Shown: positions 11,465 through 38,493 of the stretch, in pieces
Layout: each line of letters begins with the position of its first letter
Position numbering within the stretch: position 1 is the stretch's first letter
Assembly: GCA_947589575.1 (NCBI GenBank)
Contig: CANQBM010000010.1
Span: 1 to 54,358 of the forward strand
Source of the DNA: an uncultured Clostridia bacterium
GTDB taxonomy: Bacteria > Bacillota > Clostridia > Oscillospirales > Acutalibacteraceae
Direction: 5' to 3'
DNA: 54,358 nt
The notes under the pieces: generated by a model
The model's database searches: none
Told to the model about the DNA's origin: nothing
Seen by the model: only the letters and a program-made list of their open reading frames with translations
Translations under genes and position numbers: made by a program

Positions 11465-11893
11465 ATGTCAACATTTATGCCAAAAGCTGACGAAATCGAG
11501 CGCAAGTGGTATATTATTGATGCTGCTGACAAGCCTCTCGGACGTGTGGCAAGCGAGGCTGCCGTTCTTCTCAGGGGTAAGCATAAGCCGATTTTTATGC
11601 CGAATGTAGACTGCGGCGATTTCGTTATTATCATCAATACTGATAAAGCTGTTCTTACAGGCGATAAGCTTAACAAAAAGCTTTATCAGCATCACACAGG
11701 TTACATCGGTAATCTCAAGGAAGTTAAGTACGCTACTCTTATGGAAAAGAAAAGTGACTTTGCCATGCAGCTTGCTGTTAAAGGTATGATTCCCGATACC
11801 ACACTCGGCAGAAAGCAGCTTACAAGATGTCGCATCTATAAGGGTGCCCAGCACAAGCACGAGGCTCAGAAGCCTGAAGCTTGGGAATTATAA
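11465..11893 (+). CDS. rplM: 50S ribosomal protein L13
   Basis: 142 residues with the L13 hallmarks: WYIIDAADKPLGRVASEAA, a central DFVIIINTDKAVLTGDK, and KGMIPDTTLGRKQ. Early 50S assembly protein. The frame is open upstream to 11366, but GGAGGATATTGATT places the ATG at 11465. Followed after 16 nt by rpsI, the conserved pair. Confidence 0.97.
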   Translation: MSTFMPKADEIERKWYIIDAADKPLGRVASEAAVLLRGKHKPIFMPNVDCGDFVIIINTDKAVLTGDKLNKKLYQHHTGYIGNLKEVKYATLMEKKSDFAMQLAVKGMIPDTTLGRKQLTRCRIYKGAQHKHEAQKPEAWEL

Positions 11894-11909
11894 GGGAGGT
11901 ATCTGAATT

Positions 11910-12308
11910 ATGTACGAAACAAATCCTTATTTCTACGGCACAGGCAGAAGAAAAGAGTCTGTAGCTCGTGTACGTGTTTACGCAGGTACCGGCAAAATCA
12001 CAATCAATGACAGAGATATTGACGACTATTTCGGTCTTGAAACTCTCAAGCTTATTGTTCGTCAGCCTCTTAATCTTACAGAAACAACCGAAAAGTTTGA
12101 CATCGTTTGCCGCGTAAACGGCGGCGGCGTTACAGGTCAAGCAGGAGCAATCCGCCATGGTATTGCGAGAGCTCTTCTTCAGTATGACGAAGCGCTCCGC
12201 CCGGCGCTTAAGAAGGCAGGCTTCCTTACACGTGACCCTCGTATGAAGGAAAGAAAGAAACCCGGTCTTAAAAAAGCACGCCGCGCTCCCCAGTTCTCAA
12301 AGAGATAA
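11910..12308 (+). CDS. rpsI: 30S ribosomal protein S9
   Basis: 132 residues. [16 protein letters not shown] at the N-terminus, [20 protein letters not shown] in the middle and the basic tail ending PQFSKR, whose last residues reach the P-site tRNA in the ribosome. Good site GGGAGG ahead of the ATG. Second gene of the L13-S9 operon. Confidence 0.97.
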
Positions 12309-24439: not shown

Positions 24440-24613
24440 ATGAAAGCAACGGGCATTGTCAGAAGAATTGATGATCTTGGAAGAATAGTAATTCCAAAGG
24501 AAATCAGACGTTCATTCAGGATTAAGGAGGGCGACCGACCACTGACAACATTGACAGACGATGAACGCTTCTGTTTCGCAATGCTGAATTTCTATGAGCG
24601 CTGCGTTAGATAA
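24440..24613 (+). pseudogene. spoVT: spoVT 5' part fused to the integrase C-terminal tail
   Basis: Codons 1-32 (MKATGIVRRIDDLGR..., ending KEGD) are the SpoVT AbrB-type DNA-binding arm. At 24533-24536 (GACC) similarity ends within the domain, and 25 codons (RPLTTLTDDERFCF...) plus a stop follow. Those codons are in the frame needed to complete the serine recombinase at 36304-38052, so they are its displaced C-terminus. GAGGAG precedes the ATG. The 57-residue product has an incomplete AbrB domain and is unlikely to act as SpoVT. Confidence 0.9.
24530..24541 (+). other. attL, left junction of the element
   Basis: Left of GACC (24533-24536) the sequence is spoVT (AAGGAGGGC); right of it is element DNA (GACCACTGAC). 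The matching right junction is at 38050-38053. The maximum shared core is GACC, within a looser GGYGACC, short as expected for a large serine recombinase. Confidence 0.88.
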
Positions 24614-24932
24614 TTAAAAAGAAAGGCAAAAAAGCAATAAAATCGTTATTTAAATAACTAGGAGATACATACTCAAAAATTTGAGATGTCTATTTGCTGA
24701 ATGTTGTGTCTGTTTCAACAAAAGTGATTTTTACATGAGAGATCTAAAATTCTATTTGTACTTAAATAATGCAAGCATTGATTTATCATTTAATGGTTAC
24801 TCAATTTATCGTAATAATCTCATATCTTAAAGATAATACACCAATGACTTTGATTAAGTTATAATTAAATACATAAAATAACAACAGGCACTTGAGTCAA
24901 CCTCTCGTGCCTGTTTATCATATTTTGAAAAA
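24614..24932. other. Intergenic stretch at the left end of the element
   Basis: 319 bp, AT-rich. It holds a palindrome CTCAAAAATTTGAG (24672-24685) within a longer imperfect inverted repeat, a short inverted repeat near 24710, and the terminator at 24883. One 31-codon frame (24735-24830) has no ribosome site. In the circular form this DNA would lie directly downstream of the integrase gene. Confidence 0.5.
24883..24915 (-). terminator. Terminator of the leftward defence-like operon
   Basis: 9-bp stem AACAGGCAC / GTGCCTGTT with a 15-nt loop, followed on the minus strand by an AT-rich, T-biased tract; 18 bp after the DUF4062 stop. Confidence 0.65.
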
Positions 24933-26429
24933 CTAAAAATTAGAATTTTGAACGTTAAGTATTCCTTCGACAATTCCAGGATTGTTTTTAGAAGTGATTT
25001 TATATGGTATTTCTTTAAATGTATCTTCTATAAACAAAATCGATGGAAATGCCACAGTTGTATTGTGTTTGATATAGTCTACTTTCAATTTGACAATATA
25101 ATTATCACTTTCTGAATAAACCGAATAACAGAAAATGCTTTTTAATTCAGCAGTAAAGTCATCGCTGTAATTCGGAACATAACCGGGTAGCCCAATGGAA
25201 TGTGGAACATAATTGAATCCTTGATTCCTTTTCGACTCCGAGTACTCGATATATTCTGCAGTGCTATCAATACCGAATAAAACACTCATATCACAATCAT
25301 TTAACATATATCCCATTTCGTCATTCTTGAATTGTGGAAATCCATCAAGGGTCAGTAATGCTTCCTGAGGAATTATAAATGTTATTTCCACATCCTCATC
25401 TATCACCTTTCCGCAATTTTGAACAGCCAACCGAATACATCTTTTTTTGCTAAAAGCATTTTCTACAGGTGCCCATTCCAATGCTTTTGAGATAGTTTCG
25501 TGCAATCTTTTGATTTTCCAATATTTGCGTTTTTCTTCGGAGGTTCCTTTCAAATTAGGACCGTTTAAAAAATTGGAAGTGAGAGAATCCTTTACAAGAT
25601 TACCTAAATCAAAGAAATCATCAGGGAGTTCCAATTCCAACTGTTCAGCAACTGTTGTGATGAATTTTCGTTCTTCTTCATCTATATCCACCGGACTTGT
25701 AAAACCGGCAAAGAAAGCATTATTTACAGTAGTTCGTTTACCTACATTCATTCCTGCAATTTCCTGATATATTAATCGAATGGTATCAAAAAATTGATAC
25801 ATTGAAGTTTGAGTATTTAACCTAAAAGGATATATGTATACTTCCTCTGATAGCTTACCGTTTTCATCTATACTCATTAGCTTTAGGTCGGATACATTAT
25901 TGACCGTTGCTTCCTTGACTTTTTTGTCAGATAGAAAATACATTGAGAGCTGAGCAAAAAACAGTTTTTTGAATTCCTCATCTGATGAATATGTAAAATA
26001 GATGCCGCGATTTTTATATTTATTTCGGAATGCATAAATCTTTTTATATTCATCTTCGTTCATTTGAGAAGGAGAAATAGGCTTGTCCGAAAAATACATA
26101 AATACTTGTTTCCCGGATTGAAGCATAATTTCAATTTCTTCTTCAGTTCCAGATCTATATTCATCCGTTGGGGAACCAAACTTAGTCCAAAATATTGCAA
26201 CAGCCGCATCGCATTTATTTACGAATTGTTCATTCAAAAGGGTCTGCGGTTTGCCACCAGATTTAGCATAGGAACTTTTGCTCCAATGACGAGTTTTTAT
26301 TGTAATGCCTAATGTATCTGAATATAATTCGTTGAATTCAGAAACGGCGGTTTCTATTAATGCAACTTCGTTTTTTACATCACTAGGACAAGATATTAGC
26401 AGATTATATAAAGTTATACTTTGAGCCAT
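24933..26429 (-). CDS. DUF4062 (TIR-like) domain protein, putative defence effector
   Basis: 498 residues. The N-terminal 120 or so (LLISCPSDVKNE, then AVAIFWTKFGSPTDE, then SGTEEEIEIML and GKQVFMYFSDKPI) follow DUF4062, a Rossmann-like domain related to TIR and deoxyribosyltransferase folds; the Glu cluster at 96-98 sits where such folds keep a catalytic Glu. Residues about 160-498 are unrecognised, with a beta-rich C-terminus (around 345-498) that may sense a ligand. No membrane segment. It is the last gene of a leftward operon with a restriction-modification enzyme; AAAGGGATGA precedes the ATG, 4 nt after the previous stop. NAD- or nucleotide-cleaving activity is inference. Confidence 0.7.
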   Translation of the reverse strand: MAQSITLYNLLISCPSDVKNEVALIETAVSEFNELYSDTLGITIKTRHWSKSSYAKSGGKPQTLLNEQFVNKCDAAVAIFWTKFGSPTDEYRSGTEEEIEIMLQSGKQVFMYFSDKPISPSQMNEDEYKKIYAFRNKYKNRGIYFTYSSDEEFKKLFFAQLSMYFLSDKKVKEATVNNVSDLKLMSIDENGKLSEEVYIYPFRLNTQTSMYQFFDTIRLIYQEIAGMNVGKRTTVNNAFFAGFTSPVDIDEEERKFITTVAEQLELELPDDFFDLGNLVKDSLTSNFLNGPNLKGTSEEKRKYWKIKRLHETISKALEWAPVENAFSKKRCIRLAVQNCGKVIDEDVEITFIIPQEALLTLDGFPQFKNDEMGYMLNDCDMSVLFGIDSTAEYIEYSESKRNQGFNYVPHSIGLPGYVPNYSDDFTAELKSIFCYSVYSESDNYIVKLKVDYIKHNTTVAFPSILFIEDTFKEIPYKITSKNNPGIVEGILNVQNSNF

Positions 26430-26433
26430 TTAT

Positions 26434-26823
26434 TCATCCCTTTCTATTTTTTAAACTTTCCGGTACAAGAGCCAATTTGTTAATTGATTCATTGGCCTTA
26501 ACAAGGGAATCATAGAACGCTAATACATCTTCAGAGTCCCAAGTACGAAGTGATTTTTCGTCAATAACACCGATACTTTCACGAATAATTTTTACTAGTT
26601 GTTTTTCATCAACAATAGGGACAACTGTTTGAACAGTCGCATTACTTTGTGCTTTTTGAGATTTTAAGATAAGACTATATTTTTTATTGTCTAAAATGAA
26701 CATAGACCAAAGTTTACTTATGTGTTCCCAAAAATCCTTCTCGGTCATAGCAACAAGCTTGTCCTTAGTGGAAAGATTATCAGTATTCATTGCGTTCTTT
26801 TCGTTCCGTCCGATTTTCTTCAT
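26434..26823 (-). CDS. Uncharacterised 129-residue protein in the defence-like operon
   Basis: Helical, charged protein; no motif I recognise. A moderately conserved-looking core is KDFWEHISKLWSMFILDNKKYSLIL followed by DEKQLVKIIRESIGV (shown only as landmarks). Two starts are possible: ATG at 26823 (AAGG 9 nt upstream, overlapping the 37-codon ORF in another frame) or ATG at 26790 (118 residues). It ends 4 nt before the DUF4062 start, so the two products are probably made together and may form a complex. Confidence 0.6.
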   Translation of the reverse strand: MKKIGRNEKNAMNTDNLSTKDKLVAMTEKDFWEHISKLWSMFILDNKKYSLILKSQKAQSNATVQTVVPIVDEKQLVKIIRESIGVIDEKSLRTWDSEDVLAFYDSLVKANESINKLALVPESLKNRKG

Positions 26824-26893
26824 AATATGCAGCCTTGGATTCCTTTTGCTTTACAAACGCGGATATTTCCGAATTCAGATTCTGTATATTCAT
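26780..26893 (-). CDS. 37-codon ORF between the restriction-modification gene and the 129-residue gene
   Basis: Starts 15 nt after the restriction-modification stop with a strong AAGGAGTT site and encodes MNIQNLNSEISAFVKQ... ending in RKERNEY. It is helical and highly charged. Its last part overlaps the 129-residue gene in another frame, a compact overlap typical of coupled small genes. It may be a real small protein or a translational coupler for the next gene. Confidence 0.5.
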   Translation of the reverse strand: MNIQNLNSEISAFVKQKESKAAYYEENRTERKERNEY

Positions 26894-26908
26894 AACTCCT
26901 TCTGATTT

Positions 26909-29900
26909 TTACGGGCAAATACAAAGATACTCATCCATAAGCTGACGTTGAATCTTTTTAATATCAACATCTTGTGTAGCTGCTTTTTTAGCTAATGAAA
27001 CAATTTTTTTATGGTGCTTGTTATTCTTATCAAATTTAGGGATATAAATATTTGCTTTATTCAAACTATATCCATTTGACTTAAAAGAACTGTGCATATA
27101 TTGCTGAACAATTTCGCTATTCAAAATACCGCAAATAAAATGAGCTTCATCTTTGCTTATGAAATTTCTTTGCTTATCTTGACTAATAATAATCGTATGC
27201 TTTACACAAATAGTAGATTTTTTTTTACCCCACGGTGTTATTTGCGGTGTTATTACGCTTGCACAGAAATTACTGTTATCTCTTGCTGCAACAATATTTT
27301 TTGCAAATGTATATGGACCAATTTTAGACAATGCGTAAAATTCATTACCACGATGCATTTGCTTGCTTTTTTCTGATTGTTTATCAATTATATCTTTATG
27401 ATTAGCAAGATACATAAAAATATTTCGATTTTCTTTTAACATTTGTTCTGCCGTAATTGGGGATTTTGTGTCAGATTGTTTGTATGGTAATATACAAAAC
27501 TCATTACTTGAATCATATTTAAAAGCAGTAATATGAGGTCCAGTTATAATAGGATATATATTATTAGTTTCAAAATCCCATCCTAAATCAGGCATATCTT
27601 CAATTAAATATTTTGATAATTGAAATTTTTTATTAGCAAATCTATAATTCCCGATAGTTTCGGAATCTCCTATTCCTATTAACATATACAACTCTTGCGG
27701 TGTGAATTCTACACCAGTACGATATAAATATTGTGTTTCTCCTATTATTCTATCAAAATCATATTTCGTAGAAACATAAGCAAACGCAGTTGTCTTTTTG
27801 AACATTTGTTTTGCCTTACCATTCTTTATAATAAGATTATCTATAACGGTTTCATTGGAAGACGAATTTAATTTTTTATCCGAAATATATTTTGACCGTG
27901 TTATATATGTAACGGGAATACCTTTTGCATAGTCTTGATGTTTTCTTGCAAAATAATAAGTATTAAAATCTTGCATAACCGGTTTATTATCACACCTAAA
28001 AGGACGTAATGGAGGCATCCAACGGTCTACGTGTTGTAAATATAATCTTTCTTTTGTTTCGTAATCAAGCCAGAAATTTCTAAATCCTTCATAAGAATTT
28101 TGTGACATTATGCTGTCAGGCATTAAAAACGCTAATATTCCATGTTCACTCAACCAGTTTGTTGCTGTAACATTTGAAATCAGAGCGCATATATTAAGTT
28201 GCGTTCCACCATATTGACCCGCACCTGAAAAAATATGTTTTATATTACATAATTCTTTGATTCTGTGTGCATACATTTCCGGAAGATGTTCCCATTTAAC
28301 CCATGGTGGATTGCCTATAATCAAATCAAACTCTGATAGGCGAGCAATTAACATAAAATTTGTGGTTATTCTAACCCAAATACCATCCCAGTTGTTATGA
28401 TGCAATTCGGTTAATGAAACAGATAAATTTCTTATATGTGACATTAAAATTTCTGATGAACGCTCCTTATCCGTAAGTTTTTCAGATAATACTGCAAAAA
28501 GTATAGAAGATTCATCTGTTTTAACACACGCTTGAAGTTCACACATCATTTTTCCGAAATCGGGTAGTTTTACATAACGTTCCGGAAGTATAACATCGAA
28601 AGGTTTTTTATTGTTAGTAACTGAGTATTTAAAGCAAGGTATATCGTCAATAGTGATTTTTTCTGCTAAAATAGCCGAATCACCCAAATAAACAGGAATC
28701 TCCGTATTCTTCATATCACCGAATGGCTGAAGTGCTAAATAGTATCCAACCCTCGCAGAAAGAACAGAAAGAGGATTTATATCTATTCCATAAACTCTTT
28801 TCAAAATATCGTCTTTGAGTTCTTCCTTCTGTGCAATTGTCATTGCGTTGATGTTTATATTTCCAACGATTTTCTTTATTAAAGAAATTATAAATATTCC
28901 CGAACCGCAACAGGGATCAATAGCTTTCCAAGTTGGTTTTTTTACTTTATCAAGTGCTTTATCAACAACATAATCAGCAAGCCATTCAGGTGTAAAATAT
29001 TCTCCCATAGAGTGGCGAATAGATTTTGGAATAATACTCATGTATAAATCTTTAAAAATATCAATCGGTTCGTAGTACACATTCATTGAGAAAGCGGAAT
29101 ACTGGTCTATGCATTTTATAACATCTAAAATTACAGTATAGAAATCATCGTTCCATTGCAATGTGTCAGAATACCACGAAAAGAAATCTCCCTCTAAAAA
29201 ATTAGTGATATTATTGTTTCTATAAGAATATCCATCTTCCATTTTTTCGAAAAATTTTTGCATTTCAACTGATGTTGAGTTTGATAAATCATAGTAATGC
29301 TTAGCGTTATCGCTATATTCAATATTATCAATAACTTTACAAGCGATAAGCTTTACTATAATTGCATACGTTGTTTGCAGAGCATATAAAGCAGAATACT
29401 CATTTTCATTGCAATCAATTGTATCAGAAAAAATTAAAGAAAGATCTTTCCGTCGTTTTTCAATGTCATTACCTTTTCCATTATCATCTAAAGATAAATG
29501 CATTAAATTTTGCCACTCTTCAAACAACATCGTAGTTTTATCTGTTTTATCAATTTTCAACGCTTGGTATAACGATAGCGCAACACTTTTTGAAATAGAA
29601 GGAACAAGGTAATCTATAGAAAAATCTCCTAAGATGTTTTCAGGAACAAATCTTTTTGTATTGTTCGCTAATATTGCTCTAATAATAATATTAATATCAT
29701 TGTTTGATATGGTAGTAAGAGTTGTATGCTTCACAATTCCATTGACAAATGAAAAATAGCAAACACGTATTCCATCAGTCAAAATAGCGTTGTATTGAAT
29801 CTTTTGTTCTGTGTATATAGCATTTAAATAATCAATAACTTGTTGTATGGCTTTATTGATTGCATCTTTAGTTTTTAATTTTGAATGGTGTTTATATTCA

Positions 29901-30190
29901 ATTACTAAATTGTTTACCACAGCGTCCAAACGACCTTGTCCACTTGTTCTTTTCGCCAATGAGCCAAATGTATGATTGATTCCCGATATCGTTTTTTCCT
30001 TAACTATATTAAGAATGGTATCAGTTCGTTTTCTTATAATATAGTATAATTCATTTTCGAAAATAGTCGCAGTTGTGGCTTCGCTATTGGATTTTGCGGC
30101 TTGCTTCATGATAGATGTTCTCAATCCATCCAAATCAGAAACATATTCACCACTATTCAGCCAGTCTGTTACTTTTTTAATATCTTTCAT
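26909..30190 (-). CDS. Single-chain restriction-modification enzyme (type IIG, Eco57I-like)
   Basis: 1093 residues. Near residue 90 the PD-(D/E)XK nuclease pattern is seen: RLDAVVNNLVIEYKHH (Asp, then Glu-X-Lys). An N6-adenine methyltransferase core follows, motif I DPCCGSGIFI at about 425 and motif IV IIGNPPWVKWE at about 625, then a C-terminal target-recognition region. Cleavage and methylation in one chain fit type IIG rather than BREX PglX. I start at the ATG at 30190, since the ATG at 30202 lies within the AAGGATG ribosome site. First gene of the leftward operon; the recognition sequence is unknown. Confidence 0.85.
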   Translation of the reverse strand: MKDIKKVTDWLNSGEYVSDLDGLRTSIMKQAAKSNSEATTATIFENELYYIIRKRTDTILNIVKEKTISGINHTFGSLAKRTSGQGRLDAVVNNLVIEYKHHSKLKTKDAINKAIQQVIDYLNAIYTEQKIQYNAILTDGIRVCYFSFVNGIVKHTTLTTISNNDINIIIRAILANNTKRFVPENILGDFSIDYLVPSISKSVALSLYQALKIDKTDKTTMLFEEWQNLMHLSLDDNGKGNDIEKRRKDLSLIFSDTIDCNENEYSALYALQTTYAIIVKLIACKVIDNIEYSDNAKHYYDLSNSTSVEMQKFFEKMEDGYSYRNNNITNFLEGDFFSWYSDTLQWNDDFYTVILDVIKCIDQYSAFSMNVYYEPIDIFKDLYMSIIPKSIRHSMGEYFTPEWLADYVVDKALDKVKKPTWKAIDPCCGSGIFIISLIKKIVGNININAMTIAQKEELKDDILKRVYGIDINPLSVLSARVGYYLALQPFGDMKNTEIPVYLGDSAILAEKITIDDIPCFKYSVTNNKKPFDVILPERYVKLPDFGKMMCELQACVKTDESSILFAVLSEKLTDKERSSEILMSHIRNLSVSLTELHHNNWDGIWVRITTNFMLIARLSEFDLIIGNPPWVKWEHLPEMYAHRIKELCNIKHIFSGAGQYGGTQLNICALISNVTATNWLSEHGILAFLMPDSIMSQNSYEGFRNFWLDYETKERLYLQHVDRWMPPLRPFRCDNKPVMQDFNTYYFARKHQDYAKGIPVTYITRSKYISDKKLNSSSNETVIDNLIIKNGKAKQMFKKTTAFAYVSTKYDFDRIIGETQYLYRTGVEFTPQELYMLIGIGDSETIGNYRFANKKFQLSKYLIEDMPDLGWDFETNNIYPIITGPHITAFKYDSSNEFCILPYKQSDTKSPITAEQMLKENRNIFMYLANHKDIIDKQSEKSKQMHRGNEFYALSKIGPYTFAKNIVAARDNSNFCASVITPQITPWGKKKSTICVKHTIIISQDKQRNFISKDEAHFICGILNSEIVQQYMHSSFKSNGYSLNKANIYIPKFDKNNKHHKKIVSLAKKAATQDVDIKKIQRQLMDEYLCICP

Positions 30191-30329
30191 AGTATACAAC
30201 ATCCTTATGAATTATAATATTGATTAATACTGTAGTTATCTCTAAAAGATATACAAATTTCATACCCGTAGAGCAATGAACTTTGGCTTGAGAAAAAGAT
30301 ACTTGCGAGATAATAAAATTGTTACGCTT

Positions 30330-31712
30330 TTAACACATATCCTTATATTTAACAAGCGTTACATTTCCCATATCATTTGCCCTATCAATACAACCTTTTG
30401 TAAACCCTGTTTTTGCGAACAGATAAAAATATTTTTCTTTGAAATTGAATAATTCGCTGCGTTTTACAAGCGTATCTAATACTCCTGTATCAACCTTTTC
30501 ATTTGTCCATTTGCATTCGGCAAATAAAGCAGAGTCTTTATCGGTACCCATAATATCAATTTCTTCCTGAGATTTGGTTTTGGGGTTTGTGCCCCACCAT
30601 CTGCCGAGGTCTGAGAAATTTATCGGACTTTTTCCGTCAAGCAGCTGATTCCACAAATACTGTTTACAGATTTCTTCAAATACACTACCCATATAAGTTG
30701 AAAGCACAGGTTCAATTCGTTTATATGCAAGATCCGTTGCACCACGGGAAATAACAGATGTGTTTTCAGGTACAAAACGATACCAAAAACGAAACATATT
30801 ATCTTCAATGGAATAAATTGTTTTTCGGCTTGATTTTTCGCCATAGGGCGTTTCCTTTTTCACAATGCCGAGTGAAATAAGGTTTTTAATATAGGTTGAA
30901 CATACGCTTGTATCTTCTGCTACCTTGCTTGAAATCTCACTCATTTTTGATGCACCGACAGCAATAGCAGTAATAATTGCATTGTAAATGGCAGGCTCTC
31001 TGACTTCCTGTTTCAAGAGGTTATTTGGTTCCTCATATATAGCCGAAGTCGGATTAAGATAAATGTTTTTGATGTTATCTTCAATAGAGATGTTATCATT
31101 TATCTGCAAAAGATATTGGGGTGTACCGCCGATAATTCCATAAGCCATTAATTTTTCTTCTGCAGTATAATTCTTGAAATAATCACATATATCAAAAAAG
31201 TCAAATGGCTGTATTTTAAACTGAGATGTTCTTCTGCCATACAGAGGTGCTTTATACGCCAATACTTTATCTTCCATATAGGACATAGAAGAGCCGCAAA
31301 GAATCAAAAACAGCTTTGATGAATCCTTGTACTTATCTATCAAAAGCTGAAGTGTAGAAGCAAGGCTTTTTGATGCGCGAGCGACATATGGATACTCATC
31401 AATTACAAGCACTATTCTTTTGCTTTTAGCCAATTCAAAAACATATTCTAACGCAGATTGAAAAGAAGAAAAGGTTGAATCAACAATTTTGCCTGTATTG
31501 TACTCCAAAATGTTTTTTGAAAAATTTTCAAGATTTTGTTTTGCATTGGTTTCAACGCCGGTAAAAAAAATAGTATCTTTATTTTTAGTAAATTCATTAA
31601 TAAGAGCAGTTTTACCGACACGGCGCCTGCCATATATAACGGTGAATTCAAATTTGTCAGAATTATACAGTTTATTTAATTCGCCTAATTCCTTTTTTCG
31701 TCCTATAAACAT
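30330..31712 (-). CDS. ATPase of the DUF234 (archaeal-type STAND/AAA) family
   Basis: 460 residues. Walker A GRRRVGKTAL (about 31-40), Walker B VLVIDEYPYV (about 100), sensor LILCGSS, then a winged helix and a C-terminal DUF234 domain with an EIDIMG ... FAECKW nuclease-like core (about 390-410). The role of this family is unknown; they are common in anaerobes and may be toxins or regulators. The start is the ATG at 31712 (AAAGGTG upstream). Its own promoter at 31754-31782 is flanked by two copies of an 18-nt repeat. Confidence 0.83.
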   Translation of the reverse strand: MFIGRKKELGELNKLYNSDKFEFTVIYGRRRVGKTALINEFTKNKDTIFFTGVETNAKQNLENFSKNILEYNTGKIVDSTFSSFQSALEYVFELAKSKRIVLVIDEYPYVARASKSLASTLQLLIDKYKDSSKLFLILCGSSMSYMEDKVLAYKAPLYGRRTSQFKIQPFDFFDICDYFKNYTAEEKLMAYGIIGGTPQYLLQINDNISIEDNIKNIYLNPTSAIYEEPNNLLKQEVREPAIYNAIITAIAVGASKMSEISSKVAEDTSVCSTYIKNLISLGIVKKETPYGEKSSRKTIYSIEDNMFRFWYRFVPENTSVISRGATDLAYKRIEPVLSTYMGSVFEEICKQYLWNQLLDGKSPINFSDLGRWWGTNPKTKSQEEIDIMGTDKDSALFAECKWTNEKVDTGVLDTLVKRSELFNFKEKYFYLFAKTGFTKGCIDRANDMGNVTLVKYKDMC

Positions 31713-31730
31713 TTTGTTCACCTTTTTGTG

Positions 31731-31819
31731 TTTAGTGATATATGATTTACTTAATTATACTCTACTAACTTCCTGATGTCAATAGTTAAAATAATATTTA
31801 GTGATTTACGATTTACTTG
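31731..31819 (-). promoter_or_regulatory. Promoter of the DUF234 ATPase gene flanked by direct repeats
   Basis: On the minus strand, TTGACA (31777-31782), 17 bp, TATAAT (31754-31759). Copies of GTGATNTANGATTTACTT lie just downstream of the -10 (31735-31752) and upstream of the -35 (31801-31818), 66 bp apart, a likely bipartite operator. Confidence 0.65.
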
Positions 31820-31850
31820 TTTATGATTTATATTTGTTTGAAAGTTACCA

Positions 31851-31897
31851 AAATCCGATATTTTGTACTTGTTGCAGATTATCGGATTTTTTATTTT
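31851..31897 (+). terminator. Intrinsic terminator, rightward
   Basis: 10-bp perfect stem AAATCCGATA / TATCGGATTT, 19-nt loop, then TTTTATTTT. No rightward gene is seen before it, so it may shield the next operon. Confidence 0.75.
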
Positions 31898-31923
31898 GCA
31901 AATAAATTGAAAAATGGTATAAT
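31896..31923 (+). promoter_or_regulatory. Promoter of the sigma-like gene / mobilisation operon
   Basis: TTGCAA (31896-31901), 16 bp, TATAAT (31918-31923). A leader of about 80 nt follows with a small GAGG / CCTC hairpin near 31975-31990. Confidence 0.65.
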
Positions 31924-32008
31924 TTTATTGAAAATATAGGAACAATTTAGATGCATCAATGTCGTGGGTTTAATAGAGGGCACTACCTCGGAAAGGAGAT
32001 GAAAAATA

Positions 32009-32908
32009 ATGCCAATTAATCTTTTTAGAAGAAATGGAACATTCAGCGAGTTCAAAAATGCTGATTATATTCCGGCATACTATTTCTTACCACGAGAAAT
32101 AATATCCATGTGGGGTAAGGAGTACAGACGAATACCAAGATCATTTAATGCACTGATTAATGATGATAAGGCTGTTGCATTAGTTGAAAGTCCTGACTTT
32201 ATGAATTTTCTTCTGCGCTCTTATGCTTACCTGATATGGCCTATTATGATGCCGGGTGTCGGCAGAGAAATTTATTCTGAAACAGAACCTTCCTGGGCAT
32301 TTTCTCACACACCATATTATTGGATCAGAACATTAACTCTGCAAGGCGTTATTAATGAGATTGAATTTATTGCTGAACGATTAGGAGATAAATTTTTTCC
32401 ATATCCGCCAATGGATGAGGTTATCAAATTCCTTAAACCGGCAGTAAAAGTCACTATGAGAAACAATAATATGTACGATGTTTTAAAAATTGCCGAAGAA
32501 TACCGCTCTTTTGATGATTTTGATTTAAGAAACAGCCGACAAAAAACAGATTTCTATCGCAAGTGGTATCATACAAGAACAAACCATCCTCAAATTTCGC
32601 TCGAGGGATTTCAGGCGGATTATGAGAATTCTCATAACGGTTTGAGTTGGGATATAATTGATACAAACATTGATGTTGAGAATGATGTGACATCTGATGT
32701 TTTAGTTGATCAGTTTCTTTCAACATTGAGCGAGAAGGATAGGAAAATTCTTGAATATCGTATGCAAGGATATACCCTTGAAGAAATTGCTGACAAGCTC
32801 GGCTACAAAAATCATAGTGGCGTACAAAAAAGAATTCGTAAGATTGGTCAGGCTTATGAATACTTTGCGGATGTTGATTATGGCTTTTCAGACAATAAGA
32901 TAATTTAG
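32009..32908 (+). CDS. Element-encoded sigma-region-4-like regulator
   Basis: 299 residues. The last 70 or so form a sigma-70 region 4-type helix-turn-helix (LSEKDRKILEYRMQGYT, then LEEIADKLGYKNHSGVQKRI). The first 230 are rich in Trp, Tyr and Phe and match nothing I know. AAAGGAGATG before the ATG. Placed ahead of oriT, mobC and relaxase, it may control transfer, as a transcription factor rather than a true sigma factor. The function is inferred from position. Confidence 0.65.
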   Translation: MPINLFRRNGTFSEFKNADYIPAYYFLPREIISMWGKEYRRIPRSFNALINDDKAVALVESPDFMNFLLRSYAYLIWPIMMPGVGREIYSETEPSWAFSHTPYYWIRTLTLQGVINEIEFIAERLGDKFFPYPPMDEVIKFLKPAVKVTMRNNNMYDVLKIAEEYRSFDDFDLRNSRQKTDFYRKWYHTRTNHPQISLEGFQADYENSHNGLSWDIIDTNIDVENDVTSDVLVDQFLSTLSEKDRKILEYRMQGYTLEEIADKLGYKNHSGVQKRIRKIGQAYEYFADVDYGFSDNKII

Positions 32909-32910
32909 TA

Positions 32911-32950
32911 AACACCTATTTGAATTAAAAAATCAGTAGGTGTTATTTTT
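32911..32950 (+). terminator. Intrinsic terminator after the sigma-like gene
   Basis: 8-bp stem AACACCTA / TAGGTGTT, 18-nt loop, then ATTTTT. Confidence 0.75.
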
Positions 32951-32968
32951 ATGTCTAAAAATACTCAT

Positions 32969-33046
32969 AGGATGTGTCTCATCCTGTAGCAAGCAGGGAG
33001 GATGTATTGCACATCCTCCATTTCCTTAGGGGAAATTTTCCCCTAA
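32969..33046 (+). other. Candidate oriT: three tandem inverted repeats before mobC
   Basis: Between a terminator and mobC lie hairpins AGGATG / CATCCT (32969-32985), GGAGGATGT / ACATCCTCC (32997-33019), and a 10-bp-arm palindrome TTAGGGGAAA / TTTCCCCTAA (33026-33046). Position next to mobC and relaxase, and the inverted repeats, fit a transfer origin. The nic site cannot be fixed by eye. Confidence 0.6.
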
Positions 33047-33080
33047 AACCCTTTAATAACTAATTGAAAGGAACGAAATT

Positions 33081-33368
33081 ATGAACAAAAGAGATAAAAG
33101 TATTTATGTTAGAGTTACTCAGAATGAACACACTTCTATTCGCAAAAAAGCGAACAAATGCGGTCTTTCTCTTTCAGAATATCTGCGTAAATTAGCATTA
33201 GGATACACACCAGAGGCAACGCCGCCTGATGCTTTTTATCAGTTTTCGTCACGGATAAATATGCTGTATTCGCTCTGCAATGATAAGATTAATAACGAAA
33301 CAGAAATTGAATTATTAAAACTTATTGACGATATCAGAGATGAATTTCTAAAGGAGGATAGGAGATGA
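33081..33368 (+). CDS. mobC: MobC-like relaxosome accessory protein
   Basis: 95 residues. The N-terminal ribbon-helix-helix (DKSIYVRVTQNEHTSIRKKA, then CGLSLSEYLRKLALGY) is the MobC pattern; the second half is a helical dimerisation region. MobC binds near oriT and helps the relaxase nick. AAAGGAACG before the ATG; its end is 4 nt from the relaxase start. Confidence 0.83.
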   Translation: MNKRDKSIYVRVTQNEHTSIRKKANKCGLSLSEYLRKLALGYTPEATPPDAFYQFSSRINMLYSLCNDKINNETEIELLKLIDDIRDEFLKEDRR

Positions 33369-33372
33369 TTTC

Positions 33373-34734
33373 ATGGCAACAACAGGCTTTTGGCCTGTAA
33401 AATCATCACTCAAAGAGGTTATTGATTATGCTGAAAATCCTGATAAAACAATCGACAAAAGATATCTTGATGATGATTTGGCAAGAGTAATAAACTATTC
33501 CAAAAATGATAAAAAGACTGACAAAAAGATGTATGTAACGGGTATAAACTGTGCTGCACCAAGGGCTTATGAAACAATGATCACAACTAAAAAGCGCTTT
33601 GGAAAGCTTGGAGGTAATGTTGCTTATCACGGTTATCAGAGCTTTGCAAACGGCGAGGTTACACTGGAAGAGGCTCACGAAATCGGTATCAAAACTGCAC
33701 AGCAAATGTGGGGCGGTAGGTATGAGGTGTTAGTTACTACCCACTTGAATACAGACAATATTCACAACCATATTGTAGTCAATTCAGTATCATTTGTAGA
33801 TGGTAAAAAGTTTGAAAACAAGATTAGCGACCATAAATTGCTACGGCAAATTTCTGATGCAATATGCCTTGATTATGGTAAATCTGTTATCAAAAATGCT
33901 GATTTTTACTCAAAGAACAAGAACATTTATTGGCTTCATCAGTCAAGTAAAATGACTCACAGAGATATGCTAAAGCAGGATATTGAGGAGTCATTGCAAA
34001 TAGCAACAGACCGGCATAGTTTTGAACGCCGGCTAAAGTCTATGGGTTATAAATTGAAAAGAGATAATGATTACAACCTCGTTGTTATTGCTCCCGGCTG
34101 GCAAAGGCCAATACGAATGAAAAGCATTGGCTATCCTGCTGATGAGATTAAGCGACGGCTTGATGAAAACTATCATAAAAACGGATTTGATTCGGGATAT
34201 GTATTTTATAAGCCGAAAGGAAAGCCGTTAAAGTTGTTACTCATTGAGTATAATCAACTCAAAAATATGAATGGTATTCAATTAACTTTTGCTTTGATAA
34301 GCGAGTTATTAAAGCTGCTGACAGGAAATAATATCAGTCAGGATAAAACAAAACCTCTGTTACCCATTCTCAGACAAGAGGTTAAAAACGCAGAAAAAAT
34401 AAATAAGGAATATTTGCTCCTAACAAAGAATGACATTCATTCGGTTGAGGAGCTTTCTTTATTTGTTGAGCAAAAACAAAAGCAGATTAAGATTTTATCT
34501 TCTCAAAGGCAAGGTATCTATAATCGCTGTCGCAGAGCAAATAGCAACGAAAAGGAAATGCTTTATGCAAAAGCAAGAGAGTTTACAAAGAAAATAACTC
34601 CACTGCGAGATGAGATGAAAATTGCCAAATCTGCACTTGAAAGAATATCTTATCTTGATGATTTAATCAAAACGGAAAAGGCAATAGAGGGCATTAAAGT
34701 AAATCAAAGACAGAATAGAAATCAGGAACGGTAA
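33373..34734 (+). CDS. Relaxase (MobP/VirD2-type)
   Basis: 453 residues. The relaxase domain shows the three-His metal motif as THLNTDNIHNHIVVNS (about residues 121-136) and a Tyr-rich N-terminal region with the candidate nicking Tyr (NVAYHGYQSF or earlier). The C-terminal 150 residues are coiled and charged. It nicks oriT and leads the strand to a helper conjugation channel. Downstream of mobC and followed by a small conserved ORF, the usual set for clostridial mobilisable elements. Confidence 0.92.
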   Translation: MATTGFWPVKSSLKEVIDYAENPDKTIDKRYLDDDLARVINYSKNDKKTDKKMYVTGINCAAPRAYETMITTKKRFGKLGGNVAYHGYQSFANGEVTLEEAHEIGIKTAQQMWGGRYEVLVTTHLNTDNIHNHIVVNSVSFVDGKKFENKISDHKLLRQISDAICLDYGKSVIKNADFYSKNKNIYWLHQSSKMTHRDMLKQDIEESLQIATDRHSFERRLKSMGYKLKRDNDYNLVVIAPGWQRPIRMKSIGYPADEIKRRLDENYHKNGFDSGYVFYKPKGKPLKLLLIEYNQLKNMNGIQLTFALISELLKLLTGNNISQDKTKPLLPILRQEVKNAEKINKEYLLLTKNDIHSVEELSLFVEQKQKQIKILSSQRQGIYNRCRRANSNEKEMLYAKAREFTKKITPLRDEMKIAKSALERISYLDDLIKTEKAIEGIKVNQRQNRNQER

Positions 34735-34788
34735 CGAATATTGCTACCAATTTTTGTTAAAAATATATATGAAATGGAGGTAAATGAT

Positions 34789-35073
34789 TTGCTTCGTGAA
34801 ATATTAGAAAAAGAAAAGGTTGTTTGTCTCTATCTTTCTAAAGAGGAACGAGACAACACGGAGTTCAGAGAAAGCCTTAAGCCGTATTATAAACAATGCA
34901 AGGCAGCAGGTTACAAGGTGGCTGTTTTATTATCCGGCGAAGAAGACTTAATAGAAAATACCGTAAGATTGCTGAAATACAACAGAGAGTTGTTCGCAAG
35001 AAATGCGGTCAGAGCAGAAATGGCACAGGCAAAAAAACTCAAAAATCGCAGAGAGCGTAACTGGGAAAGATAA
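34789..35073 (+). CDS. Small protein downstream of the relaxase
   Basis: About 94 residues, no recognised domain: helical and basic, with VVCLYLSKEERDN near the start and a Lys/Arg/Ala-rich end. The frame is open to 34741, but GGAGGTAA is 5-7 nt before a TTG at 34789. It occupies the position of a mobilisation-linked hypothetical protein found behind relaxases in similar elements; a function in transfer is inference. Confidence 0.6.
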   Translation: MLREILEKEKVVCLYLSKEERDNTEFRESLKPYYKQCKAAGYKVAVLLSGEEDLIENTVRLLKYNRELFARNAVRAEMAQAKKLKNRRERNWER

Positions 35074-35089
35074 TTTATGAGTTGCTGCC

Positions 35090-35260
35090 TCAATCGACAT
35101 CAGTTGGTTGAGGTGGCATTTTAATCGAGGGCAACGCCCGAACACCAACATTTGTTAAGGGCTTAAGCCCGTTTCAGCGGGAGATTATAACTTCCGCTGA
35201 AAGAAAAAGGTGTTACCCGCCGCCTATAGAGGCGGGGGACATCTTTTCAAATGTTATATT
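35090..35260. other. Intergenic cluster of hairpins
   Basis: Between the small mobilisation ORF and hepT lie in sequence: CCTCAA / TTGAGG, GGGC-aac-GCCC, the palindrome GGGCTTAAGCCC, TTTCAGCGG / CCGCTGAAA, and GGTGT..CCCGCC / GGCGGG..ACATC followed by TTTT (35209-35246, a likely rightward terminator). Five stems in 160 bp suggest a structured RNA, a replication or transfer site, or a terminator complex. Confidence 0.5.
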
Positions 35261-35293
35261 AAAAAGTTGACCTTGGCTCATGTAAAAGTCAAC
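35261..35293 (-). terminator. Terminator of the mntA-hepT operon
   Basis: 6-bp stem GTTGAC / GTCAAC, 16-nt loop, five T on the minus strand; 10 bp after the hepT stop. Confidence 0.65.
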
Positions 35294-35302
35294 ACAAATG
35301 AA

Positions 35303-35635
35303 TTATTCGTTTTTTAACATTTCTAATAATTCGGGAATATCATTTTTCAATGTTTCATAGATTACATTTAAATCGACACTGCCATAATCATGAACAATTC
35401 TGTTTCTTAATCCTGAAATTGCATACCATGGAATATGTGGCTTTGATGATTTGTATTCTTCAGATAACAATTTTGTATTTTCGGAAATCTGAATCATGCG
35501 AAAAAGCATAGAATCAAGAAGAATGTCGTTTTTGGTCAGTTCCTCTAAATTAACTGTTTCCATATGCACAGTGATAAACTCTAAATCCGTAATTATCTTG
35601 TTTACATAATAGCTATCATTTTTGATATTATCCAT
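35303..35635 (-). CDS. hepT: HepT-like HEPN toxin
   Basis: 110-residue all-helical HEPN/DUF86 protein. The catalytic RX4HXY motif is present as RNRIVHDYG (residues about 77-85). In characterised MntA/HepT pairs HepT is an RNase toxin silenced by AMPylation of its Tyr by MntA. It overlaps the mntA stop by 8 nt. Confidence 0.85.
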   Translation of the reverse strand: MDNIKNDSYYVNKIITDLEFITVHMETVNLEELTKNDILLDSMLFRMIQISENTKLLSEEYKSSKPHIPWYAISGLRNRIVHDYGSVDLNVIYETLKNDIPELLEMLKNE

Positions 35636-36098
35636 ATATTTTTATTCCGTCCTTTAATATTTCTCTTGTTAAATCCGGATTATTATTTAGTTGATTAATA
35701 TCTAATGCATCAACCTTTTTTTGCAAAGCTATTCGCAGTTCCTCTACTAAGGCAAAAAACTTTATGCCTTTAATATCCGCAGAAATCAGCAAATCCACAT
35801 CGCTTTTTTCATTTGCAGAGCCCTTTGCGTAGGATCCGAATAAATAGCAATAGTCAACGCTATATTTTTCAAAAACATGATTACATTTGTTTTTGATGTA
35901 ATCAATGCTGACTACACCGTGTTCCTCGTCAACAGGATTTATTTGACTCAGCTTCTCAATAATGTAATTATATTTAATAGTTCCTATTTTTGTTTCATCA
36001 TTCTCATATGTTATATAGGAACGTAGGGAAATATTGACTAACTCTGCAACCTGCTTTTGTGTCAATGCTTTTTCAATTCTTAAATCTCTCAGATTCAT
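35628..36098 (-). CDS. mntA: MntA-like nucleotidyltransferase antitoxin with N-terminal XRE domain
   Basis: 156 residues. An XRE helix-turn-helix (ALTQKQVAELVNISLRSYITY) is followed by a minimal nucleotidyltransferase: GSYAKGSANEKSDVDLL has the GSX10DXD active site. It should AMPylate HepT and, with its extra HTH, bind its own promoter. I start at the ATG at 36098 (GAGGTG upstream); the frame runs to 36140. The palindromes TGCAATNATTGCA lie in its promoter. Confidence 0.85.
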   Translation of the reverse strand: MNLRDLRIEKALTQKQVAELVNISLRSYITYENDETKIGTIKYNYIIEKLSQINPVDEEHGVVSIDYIKNKCNHVFEKYSVDYCYLFGSYAKGSANEKSDVDLLISADIKGIKFFALVEELRIALQKKVDALDINQLNNNPDLTREILKDGIKIYG

Positions 36099-36119
36099 AA
36101 TAATTGCACCTCTGATTTG

Positions 36120-36171
36120 ATTATAGTGCAATAATTGCATATTGTCAATGTGAAAATGTGCAATTATTGCA
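36120..36171 (-). promoter_or_regulatory. mntA-hepT promoter with two palindromic operators
   Basis: On the minus strand, TTGACA (36143-36148), 17 bp, TATAAT (36120-36125). The palindrome TGCAATAATTGCA (36127-36139) fills the spacer; a second copy TGCAATTATTGCA (36159-36171) is upstream, 32 bp centre to centre (three turns). A half site overlaps the ribosome site near 36101-36109. This fits autorepression by the MntA HTH. Confidence 0.85.
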
Positions 36172-36219
36172 TTTGCGATTATTATATGTAAGACTGCGAA
36201 ATAAATACAAACAAAACTA

Positions 36220-36288
36220 TTGAATTTATTAAATTTACCTGTTACAATGTTATTAGTAAATATATTTTTATGAAATATAACATTGTAA
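36220..36288 (+). promoter_or_regulatory. Integrase promoter and inverted repeat
   Basis: TTGAAT (36220-36225), 17 bp, TACAAT (36243-36248). A 12-bp inverted repeat TTACAATGTTAT / ATAACATTGTAA (36242-36253 and 36277-36288) overlaps the -10 and ends before the AAAGGAGGAG ribosome site, so it may be an operator or a leader hairpin. Confidence 0.7.
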
Positions 36289-36303
36289 AAAAGGAGGAGT
36301 ATT

Positions 36304-38493
36304 ATGACGAATAAAGTTTTAAAGATAGCCGGTTATTTGCGAATTTCCGTTGATACGGAAGAAGACCGTGACAATACCTCAATAGAAAATCAACGCCGCA
36401 GCATTGAGATGTTTGTATCAAGAGAATTTCCTGATGCTCAGCTTGATTTTTATACCGACAGAGACAGAAGCGGCTATACTTTTGAGCAAAGAGAGGATTA
36501 TATGCGGCTTCGTCCATTACTAAAAAACGGCACTTATGATATTTTAATGGTAAAGGATTTATCCCGTTTTTCCCGTAGGAACAGCAGAGGTCTTGTTGAG
36601 CTTGAGGATTTAAGGGATTGCGGACTTCGAATCATTGCTATAAATGATGGTATTGATTACCCTGTTCAGGATGACTGGACACTTATTCAGTTTAAATTTC
36701 TTATGAATGAAATGCCTGTAACAGATACATCAAAAAAGGTAAGACGAGTTATTGATGTTAAGCAAAAGAGCGGTGATTGGATATGCAGCGTGCCTTTCGG
36801 CTATGTAATTACCAACACTAAATTAGGCTATTTTGAAATTGAACCGCAAGCTGCGGAGGTGGTTAAAAAGATTTTCTCATTGTATCTTGAAGGATGGGGA
36901 TATAAAAAAATTGCCAACTATCTGACTGATGAACATATTCCGACGCCAAGAATGGTTGAAAAGCAGCGCAAAGATGAACAGAATATACCTAACAAAATCA
37001 GAGCAAAGCCTGTTTGGGCAATTCCCACCATTCAAGGAATTCTGGGTAATGATTTTTATATAGGCACGCTCCGTCAGAAAAAGTATAGTCGTTCAAAAAT
37101 TAACGGCCCTGATGTGAAGCTGTCCGAAAACAGTCATATAGTGTTTGAAAATCATCACGAACCTATCATTGATTACAGGACCTTCGCAACGGTTCAGGAG
37201 CAAATGAAAAAGCGAACACGCTCAAATTACAGGGGTGTTAAAAAATACGATACATCTTTCAGTGGATTTTTATTCTGCGGAGATTGCGGAAGCCCTATGT
37301 TTTCAATGAGTCGTTCGGACATGGCGGCAGCCTACACCTGTGGAACATATCACAAAAGAGGATTAAAGGGATGCACGTCACATCATACAAGAGTTGATAT
37401 GCTCACTGCCATCTTAAAAAGCTATGTTGCAAGAGTTGTGAAGAACTCCGAAGAAATGCTTGCAAAATTAGAACAGGGCATTAAGGATGAAAAAAAGAAC
37501 CTCAAAAAAGGTCAATCTGAAATCAACGAATTAAAAACTCAACTGTCTGATGCAAAGGACGAGCTTGTAGTTACAATGCGACAGAAAATTAAGGAGATAC
37601 AGAAAAATCCTGACAATGCAGATGTAATTGAGGAAAGCTATGAGTATTTGATTAACGATTTGCACAGCAGAATTGCCGGTATAGAAAATCAGATAACCTT
37701 TGCAACCGAAAGAGAAAACACAATAATCAAGGTAAATCGTATTGCCCGAACAGCTATTGATATTTTTAATGATATATTAAATAAAGAACTGATTGATAAA
37801 AATGACCTTGAAATAATTATTGACCGTATAGATATTTATGATGACCATATTGATATACAGCTCAAAGGCGATATTCAAATGCTCCTTGAAACAGGAGCAA
37901 TATGCGAGGAACTTATGCCTGATTTCACACCTATGAATAAAGCTGTAAATTTTGATTGGGACATCAGGAGTAACTCAAATGCCAAAGTCGTCCTTAAGGT
38001 GACACACCAGAAGGACAAGGCTCTTGATGTCAATGTTATCAGTAGCGGTGACCCACTTGAGATTTTTACCGATGCCGAGGGAGAAGTGATTTTTAAAAAA
38101 TATTCGCCTATAGGCGAGCTTTCAAATTTCGCAAACCAGTATGCTGAGGTGCTGCACAAAAACGGCGGGCTTCCTATTGCAATTATGGACAATGATCATG
38201 TTATTGCCGCATCGGGAATAAGCAAGAGGGAAATTCTTGAACGCAGAGTAACAAAAAATCTTGAAGAGCTTATGGAAAACAGAGCTATCCATATTTCAAC
38301 AGATCAGGTTCCGAGTATGAACGCTATTGAAGGGTTTGACAGAAAGGCAAATGTAGTATACCCGATTATATACGGCGGAGATGTCAGCGGAGCGGTAGCC
38401 CTTATCGAAGAAGATAATAATTCCGTTCCAAGTGAAACGGACATTAAACTCGTTCAGGTTGCTGCTGCGTTTCTTGGTAAGCAAATGGAATAG
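36304..38493 (+). CDS. Large serine recombinase (integrase), fused in frame to the SpoVT C-terminus
   Basis: 729 residues. Resolvase domain: GYLRIS with catalytic Ser15 and KDLSRFSRR. Then recombinase domain, zinc ribbon with paired Cys (CGDCG at about 325, CGTYHKRGLKGC), and a coiled coil (about 390-460). Residues 1-583 are integrase; from Pro584 the sequence is SpoVT residues 33-178 (PLEIFTDAEGEVIFKKYSPI...GKQME), a GAF-like domain. The normal integrase tail is at 24536-24613; the uninterrupted protein would have about 608 residues. AAAGGAGGAG precedes the ATG. Whether the chimera recombines is unknown. Confidence 0.93.
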   Translation: MTNKVLKIAGYLRISVDTEEDRDNTSIENQRRSIEMFVSREFPDAQLDFYTDRDRSGYTFEQREDYMRLRPLLKNGTYDILMVKDLSRFSRRNSRGLVELEDLRDCGLRIIAINDGIDYPVQDDWTLIQFKFLMNEMPVTDTSKKVRRVIDVKQKSGDWICSVPFGYVITNTKLGYFEIEPQAAEVVKKIFSLYLEGWGYKKIANYLTDEHIPTPRMVEKQRKDEQNIPNKIRAKPVWAIPTIQGILGNDFYIGTLRQKKYSRSKINGPDVKLSENSHIVFENHHEPIIDYRTFATVQEQMKKRTRSNYRGVKKYDTSFSGFLFCGDCGSPMFSMSRSDMAAAYTCGTYHKRGLKGCTSHHTRVDMLTAILKSYVARVVKNSEEMLAKLEQGIKDEKKNLKKGQSEINELKTQLSDAKDELVVTMRQKIKEIQKNPDNADVIEESYEYLINDLHSRIAGIENQITFATERENTIIKVNRIARTAIDIFNDILNKELIDKNDLEIIIDRIDIYDDHIDIQLKGDIQMLLETGAICEELMPDFTPMNKAVNFDWDIRSNSNAKVVLKVTHQKDKALDVNVISSGDPLEIFTDAEGEVIFKKYSPIGELSNFANQYAEVLHKNGGLPIAIMDNDHVIAASGISKREILERRVTKNLEELMENRAIHISTDQVPSMNAIEGFDRKANVVYPIIYGGDVSGAVALIEEDNNSVPSETDIKLVQVAAAFLGKQME
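38047..38058 (+). other. attR, right junction of the element
   Basis: Element DNA ends at GGT-GACC (core 38050-38053) and spoVT resumes with CACTTGAGATTT. Joined to the left half at GACC it restores KEGD-PLEIF, the unbroken SpoVT sequence. Confidence 0.9.
38050..38493 (+). pseudogene. spoVT: spoVT 3' part (codons 33-178)
   Basis: 146 residues from PLEIF to GKQME match the SpoVT C-terminal GAF-like domain, which in Bacillus stabilises the regulator and may bind a ligand. With the 32 codons at 24440 they total 178, the usual family length. Here the part is only translated as the end of the integrase reading frame, unless an internal start is used. Confidence 0.92.

Follow-up and report, generated by a model that had tools for sequence, protein, structure and literature searches.

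Comparison of the two ends of integrated copies points to a family of serine-integrase elements with an attP within the 3' end of the integrase gene and a preferred attB around codon 32 of the sporulation gene spoVT. As the paired ends indicate, crossover at a GGyGACC core swaps an integrase tail of mostly 25-29 residues for residues 33-178 of SpoVT, and SpoVT 1-32 gains that tail in return. That the two proteins exchange their ends reciprocally, and that a family of such elements exists, we regard as practically certain from sequence.

The window, by which we mean the whole stretch of 54,358 nucleotides that was analysed, contains one such element in integrated form, with the following features:

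36304..38493, plus strand: chimeric ORF as integrated, 729 aa, made up of serine integrase 1-583 and SpoVT 33-178, with an ATG start and AAAGGAGGAG upstream
36304..38052, plus strand: element-borne portion of the integrase, ending at D583
38053..38490, plus strand: host spoVT codons 33-178, remainder of the DNA-binding domain plus GAF-like SpoVT_C
24440..24613, plus strand: attL ORF, 57 aa, SpoVT 1-32 plus the integrase tail RPLTTLTDDERFCFAMLNFYERCVR
24536..24613, plus strand: conserved 25-residue C-terminal tail of the inferred free-form integrase, through the stop codon
24533..24534, plus strand: predicted crossover dinucleotide GA at attL (attL and attR agree on G in 57/57 and on A in 56/57 pairs)
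38050..38051, plus strand: predicted crossover dinucleotide GA at attR, in codon D583
38030..38050, plus strand: attP left arm, encoding the integrase end, pairing with the right arm at 15/21 positions in the window's reconstructed attP
24534..24554, plus strand: attP right arm, encoding the start of the tail, pairing with the left arm at 15/21 positions
34741..35073, plus strand: integrase-linked conserved small gene, 110 aa, candidate recombination directionality factor
33373..34734, plus strand: relaxase, MobA/VirD2 type (Pfam PF03432)
33081..33368, plus strand: NikA-like mobilization protein (Pfam PF21983)
26909..30202, minus strand: cargo, type IIG restriction-modification enzyme
35303..36140, minus strand: cargo, HepT-like / nucleotidyltransferase-HTH pair, between the small linked gene and the integrase

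A previous, sequence-only reading had proposed that the integrase runs without a stop across attR into SpoVT 33-178 to give a protein of 729 residues. The open reading frame and its Pfam domains agree, with Resolvase (8-159), Recombinase (181-304) and zinc ribbon (319-372) domains followed by SpoVT_C (605-729, E 4e-39). The junction sits downstream of all recognised integrase domains, and a long extra stretch follows the zinc ribbon. The proposed reciprocal product, SpoVT 1-32 continuing into the integrase tail, is found at the left end as the 57-aa ORF at 24440-24613, and joining both pieces from the window does yield the 608 aa that had been predicted for the free form. The core GGyGACC is common to attL and attR of the window element, and the positions of the GA dinucleotides give an element size of 13,517 bp (24534 to 38050). 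In a search of the window genome, the two split pieces were the only SpoVT matches.

Because a NikA-like protein, a relaxase and cargo genes lie between its ends, the window copy looks like an integrative mobilizable element; a relaxase of the window type occurs in just 16 of the 80 loci considered below, many of which are short. The defence-like cargo at 24933-31721 comprises the type IIG restriction enzyme and matches to PDC-S27 and PDC-S60 type models. The HepT/nucleotidyltransferase pair at 35303-36140 separates the small linked gene from the integrase, and the distance between these two genes is similar in L004; in L003, with a 97% identical integrase, they lie within 0.45 kb of each other, and this difference in spacing suggests a recent gain or loss.

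The arrangement is not peculiar to the window. From a collection of genome contigs we kept, and analysed, 80 of 87 loci found to be related in the integrase part. Seventy-two of them are complete SpoVT chimeras, a further chimera is truncated where its contig ends, and seven are something else. The complete chimeras are all joined in frame at the same residue, extend for 143-156 residues beyond the junction and have an intact SpoVT reading frame (72/72); frame breaks within the integrase occur in L064 and L095. Among the carriers are the isolates Anaerotruncus massiliensis AT3, Chakrabartyella piscis BP5G and Butyricicoccus pullicaecorum DSM 23266. The sequence-only reading had suggested a search for further recombinases ending in SpoVT as a check on the chimera and had named a lost stop codon as the observation that would undo it: the check thus turned up the same join in 72 of 80 loci, named isolates included, which rules out a stop removed by chance or by sequencing error.

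Sampling more broadly within the window's order, we find that 35 of 394 genomes match the integrase end, some of them weakly or partially. Of 34 loci read from genome searches in which the joined end served as query, 32 represent this integrase and 31 of those run on into SpoVT, 29 as judged by motif and two (L234 and L248) by eye; L230 is the one that does not. Plasmids contain no match of at least 60% identity. Two of 12 records in a phage collection are close: H22 ends in SpoVT, and H21 does not reach the junction. Among four close IMG/VR records, L198 is a complete SpoVT chimera, L199 and L200 are chimeras cut by contig ends, and L197 (G380) ends within the core and is uninformative on the free form.

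To what extent does the presence of the element coincide with a broken spoVT? Intact SpoVT was searched for in 93 genomes (51 + 42, with at least two duplicates among them, G300 and G372). In 83 of these only pieces are found, the C-terminal piece usually within the chimera and most genomes having a separate SpoVT 1-32; in two of the 83, G243 and G361, the integrase frame is broken. In the remaining ten, SpoVT is full-length or nearly so (the match in G352 covers 9-176 of 178). In eight of the ten the integrase is at another site, fragmentary or decayed; the other two, G329 and G351, have a full-length SpoVT in addition to a chimera, and we take G329 to be a mixed population, whereas G351 may be a binning mix. 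In a second set, several members of which repeat genomes already counted, 31 of 31 chimera carriers lack a full-length SpoVT, which is present in G558, where the element occupies a secondary site. All 20 genomes without the integrase have the full-length SpoVT, with the match beginning at residue 7 or 8 in two cases. Split pieces in carriers, an intact gene in non-carriers and an empty site, to which we return below, show that spoVT is interrupted precisely by the element. Two copies of SpoVT 1-32 plus tail occur on one contig in L216 (G310) and L218 (G379), and L216 has two additional orphan tails, its four features lying at 4435, 11961, 13850 and 17813; these tandem copies are perhaps remnants of several integrations.

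To reconstruct the attachment sites, we joined 57 attL/attR pairs by genome, sometimes across contigs, leaving out L125 (short flank) as well as L166/L064, G310 and G379 (two left ends each). Around the GA of codon 583, 15.6 of 21 positions in the resulting attP are symmetric, compared with 8.6/21 for the next-best centre and 8.4/21 for attB. A short common core together with a symmetric attP that differs from attB is what is expected of a serine integrase. Since the palindromic attP is centred on codon 583, a free integrase would read through its own attP, and the paired ends place attP, we infer, inside the integrase's own gene. The sequence-only reading had located attP in the integrase ORF and attB in spoVT, both in frame and with reciprocal ends, and this is borne out by the 57 pairs and the empty site, as well as by halves that differ in history and by a tail found at a secondary site without SpoVT.

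Two assemblies contain contigs that branch exactly at the core, which indicates alternative junctions in the same sample. The chimera contig of G329 runs 99 bp beyond the core before it ends, and those 99 bp are identical to an intact spoVT on another contig, so that the alternative junction there, as assembled, is an empty site. In G082 there are two overlaps of exactly 99 bp, one between the attL contig and the contig with the 5' part of spoVT, which stops at the core, and one between the attR contig and the contig with the 3' part; here, too, the alternative would be an empty site. Excision and mixed strains both fit these branches.

What the integrase stands to lose upon integration can be gauged from the tails that follow SpoVT 1-32 at 62 left ends (61 distinct), a set that omits L126, L130, L177 and L184, which are cut by contig ends, and L154, which was missed by the pattern. 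In 57 of the 62 the tail is 25-29 aa long, with a consensus near P-S/L-x-I/T-T-L-T-x-x-E-x-F-C-F-A/G-M-L-x-L-x-K-R, and it is probably helical. The first seven tail codons vary little at any codon position, as expected if they constitute the attP right arm. Across codons 8-25 of 54 gap-free tails, variation is 1.36, 1.19 and 1.63 bits at the three codon positions, the third being highest, and pN/pS over these codons is 0.37 (17 disjoint pairs) or 0.40 (19 pairs), with pairs chosen by integrase similarity alone. The tail is thus constrained at the protein level; constraint on the integrase body is tighter, at 0.10 (22 pairs). Across 53 elements, tail distance follows integrase distance (partial rank correlation 0.33, 0/500 permutations), the corresponding value for SpoVT distance being 0.06 (49/500 permutations). 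At the secondary site in G558, the far end of the element has a tail of the same kind that no SpoVT precedes (E 1.7e-9), which is independent evidence that the tail belongs to the element. The conservation of the tail could partly reflect the attL peptide, although the G558 tail argues otherwise, and we think it very probable that the tail is the natural C-terminal end of the free integrase. An ssrA-like degron is not supported, as a terminal AA is absent from all 62 tails.

The eight genomes in which the integrase lies elsewhere or is fragmentary or decayed are L025, L055, L059, L069, L072, L073, L086 and L094. In L072, L086 and L073 the integrase continues into unrelated proteins, and in L025 and L055 it stops soon after the junction, which fits an integrase that would mostly target spoVT and occasionally other places. 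The fusions at the secondary sites in L072 and L086/L116 are in frame, with partners that we take to be a GspE-like ATPase-like and an endonuclease/exonuclease/phosphatase-like protein; in L279 the integrase ends beside another gene, presumably a glycoside-hydrolase-like one (GH97). That unrelated domains, or none, are added at secondary sites implies that the SpoVT end is dispensable for the element's existence. In L069 (Angelakisella massiliensis, 11560-12000) an intact spoVT is preceded, at about 120 bp, by a decayed integrase, which is probably left over from a lost or deleted element.

Having established how the two proteins are rearranged, we wondered whether the rearrangement does anything for the element. 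Our best explanation, to which we give an even chance, is that the swap provides two state-coupled forms of the integrase and so may change its activity with the state of the DNA. Imagine a free circle: it would make the form of about 608 aa with its own tail, and this would be the integrating form. Once in the chromosome, only the 729-aa form would be made, which would keep the Resolvase, Recombinase and zinc-ribbon domains and have a GAF-like host end in place of the tail. This form might be a poorer integrase, awaiting a directionality factor for excision. Excision would restore spoVT, and the free circle would again make the tailed form and could reintegrate. In the available text of PMC5737554, fusing a serine integrase C-terminally to its own directionality factor favours excision, so that additions at this end of the protein can matter. 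Several observations speak against our explanation. The attP junction had no match in two IMG/VR pattern scans, and a joined 129-aa end used as a query against 394 + 391 overlapping genomes returned only attR- and attL-type matches, keeping in mind that this query would recognise only similar tails. Furthermore, the in-frame join follows from the homology of the att sites, so that its constancy is no proof of function by itself, the tail is looser (0.37-0.40) than the integrase body (0.10), integrases at secondary sites do without a SpoVT end, and, instead of reintegrating, the element might disappear from the spore lineage.

The same observations might be accounted for more simply. If attP merely happened to overlap the 3' end of the integrase gene, the exchange would be real and yet regulate nothing, the tail being of general importance to the integrase and the SpoVT end tolerated baggage. 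We consider this a serious possibility that falls somewhat short of even. It sits well with a junction that lies past the recognised integrase domains, with the unrelated or absent domains at secondary sites (L025, L055, L072, L073, L086), with homologous sites that force in-frame joins, and with a tail less constrained than the integrase body. Two observations are less easily reconciled with it. First, a constrained tail leaves the integrase upon integration, so that the two forms differ by a conserved part. Second, the SpoVT frame is kept in every one of the 72 complete chimeras, for which recent or reversible insertion would be an explanation as well.

If, on the other hand, integrase form is coupled to DNA state, the best candidate for the directionality factor is a small gene linked to the integrase. 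We examined 81 loci, 73 of which have upstream ORFs; the small gene scored close upstream of the integrase in 59 of the 73 (one of these matches, L060, is spurious at 4 bits) and was missed in 14. It is present in 20 of 295 genomes, all 20 of which are integrase carriers; in G513 and G581 it is distant from the integrase or on a different contig. The gene belongs to no Pfam or PHROG family and has no significant NCBIfam or PDB match, and it is by its linkage that it becomes a candidate recombination directionality factor.

What might insertion mean for the host? PDB 2ro5 represents SpoVT residues 1-55, the N-terminal DNA-binding domain, and a cut after residue 32, within this domain, should destroy it. 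According to the available text of PMC3789822, SpoVT acts in the forespore and is needed for mature spores in Clostridium difficile, where the spores of a spoVT mutant are phase-dark and none is heat-resistant. A sigma-G-class match of at least 358.9 bits, full-length or nearly so, is present in 30 of 33 carriers, only one of them above the curated cut-off; a loose sigma-G E-value also matches 10 of 14 control genomes, and it is the gap in score that counts. The exceptions are G088, which is among the 30 and has an internal stop, G314 and G315, which have no match, and G321, in which the gene appears split; on contig C30 of G321 the two parts (7429-7941 and 11589-12008) are separated by about 3.6 kb. 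Taken together, the mutant phenotype and the sigma-G-class matches suggest that good spores can probably form only once the element has left, as is the case with skin and gin. With SpoVT at work in the forespore, an excised circle would end up inside the spore. It is conceivable, though we think it unlikely, that the GAF-like sensory SpoVT end allows the inserted enzyme to respond to the state of the host forespore. On this unlikely reading, integration would rewrite the recombinase, which would excise when SpoVT is needed, and the circle inside the spore would make the tailed form and reintegrate after germination.

Rather than being removed, SpoVT might be rewired, with the chimera or the 57-aa attL peptide keeping or altering its regulatory function. 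SpoVT 33-178 is open in 72 of 72 complete chimeras and pN/pS there is 0.30 (22 pairs). However, the 32/33 cut falls inside the DNA-binding domain, and most of the SpoVT divergence is probably older than the insertion, so that the value of 0.30 says little; we therefore hold rewiring to be improbable.

A domesticated gene, in which integrase and SpoVT were fused once and then inherited as one, would readily account for the same architecture in at least 80 genomes. Against it, the two halves have diverged unequally: in 22 disjoint pairs of chimeras whose integrases are about 75-99.5% identical, the SpoVT half is more diverged (pS) in 21 of the 22. Summed over pairs, pS and pN are 0.37 and 0.04 for the integrase and 0.60 and 0.18 for SpoVT; in the pair L009/L076, for example, pS is 0.13 for the integrase and 0.72 for SpoVT. 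Such discordance indicates that each chimera formed anew from a travelling half and a host half. In addition, most carriers keep SpoVT 1-32 elsewhere, joined to the element's tail, and a genome of the same genus as the window (L093) has an intact spoVT, that is, an empty site. L093 matches the right flank of the window element at 73% over 1585 bp starting at the core, and the left flank at 76% up to the core over 161 bp only, the gene further upstream being unmatched. Discordant halves, leftover pieces and the empty site together lead us to reject a single stable fusion as extremely improbable. An assembly or sequencing artefact, which might be suspected because most carriers are metagenome-assembled, we dismiss with near certainty, given that finished and isolate genomes have the same junction and that 57 attL/attR pairs yield one palindromic attP.

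How does the element compare with known systems? The skin(Cd), SPbeta/spsM and gin/gerE elements are likewise large serine recombinase elements in a sporulation gene, with short att cores and excision that restores the gene, and the available portions of the sources mention no exchange of integrase ends (PMC5025042, PMC4191935, PMC5595907). The targets there are sigK, spsM and gerE rather than spoVT, and, as far as the accessible text goes, sigK and gerE belong to the mother cell whereas SpoVT is a forespore regulator (PMC5025042, PMC5595907, PMC3789822). Archaeal suicidal (SSV-type) integrases, as presented in the available part of a review, similarly have attP within their own gene, which integration alters; these are tyrosine recombinases whose catalytic part is separated, whereas the serine integrase here keeps its domains and gains a host end (PMC8371274). 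The same part of that review describes integrases that disrupt their own gene as found only in archaea and as tyrosine recombinases (PMC8371274). In mycobacteriophage BPs, again from the text available, attP also lies in a coding region and a C-terminus differs between free and integrated states with a known regulatory effect, but the changed protein is the repressor, which is truncated, the free form being ssrA-like tagged (PMC4557955). Here, by contrast, attP is in the integrase gene, it is the integrase itself that changes and gains a domain, and 0/62 tails end in AA. In its available text, a large survey that covers serine recombinases with their att sites, filtered by coding length and att distance, mentions no such exchange (PMC10083194).

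The best solved relative of the integrase part is the SPbeta integrase YokA (PDB 9dxh, 9dxd). YokA plus YotN, a chain of 620 residues, illustrates that a C-terminal addition to a serine integrase is amenable to structural study, although it reads as an engineered fusion and not as a natural exchange with a host gene. We take YotN to be a directionality factor. The sequence-only reading knew of no element that exchanges protein ends in this way, and that claim stands in part. Among the open-licence papers listed, we found none in which a serine integrase trades ends with a host regulator, allowing for one in print elsewhere; the SSV-type integrases and the BPs repressor are partial precedents. 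Within the literature found, then, this is a serine-integrase element that interrupts a sporulation gene, with a previously undescribed exchange of ends.

Serine integrases are widely used tools in genome engineering, and how their direction is chosen is a central question. In at least 80 genomes, the state of the DNA appears to be coupled to the C-terminus of the enzyme itself, which offers ready-made pairs of free and integrated enzymes for comparison. For the Clostridia, the finding means that a widespread family of elements breaks a key regulator of sporulation.
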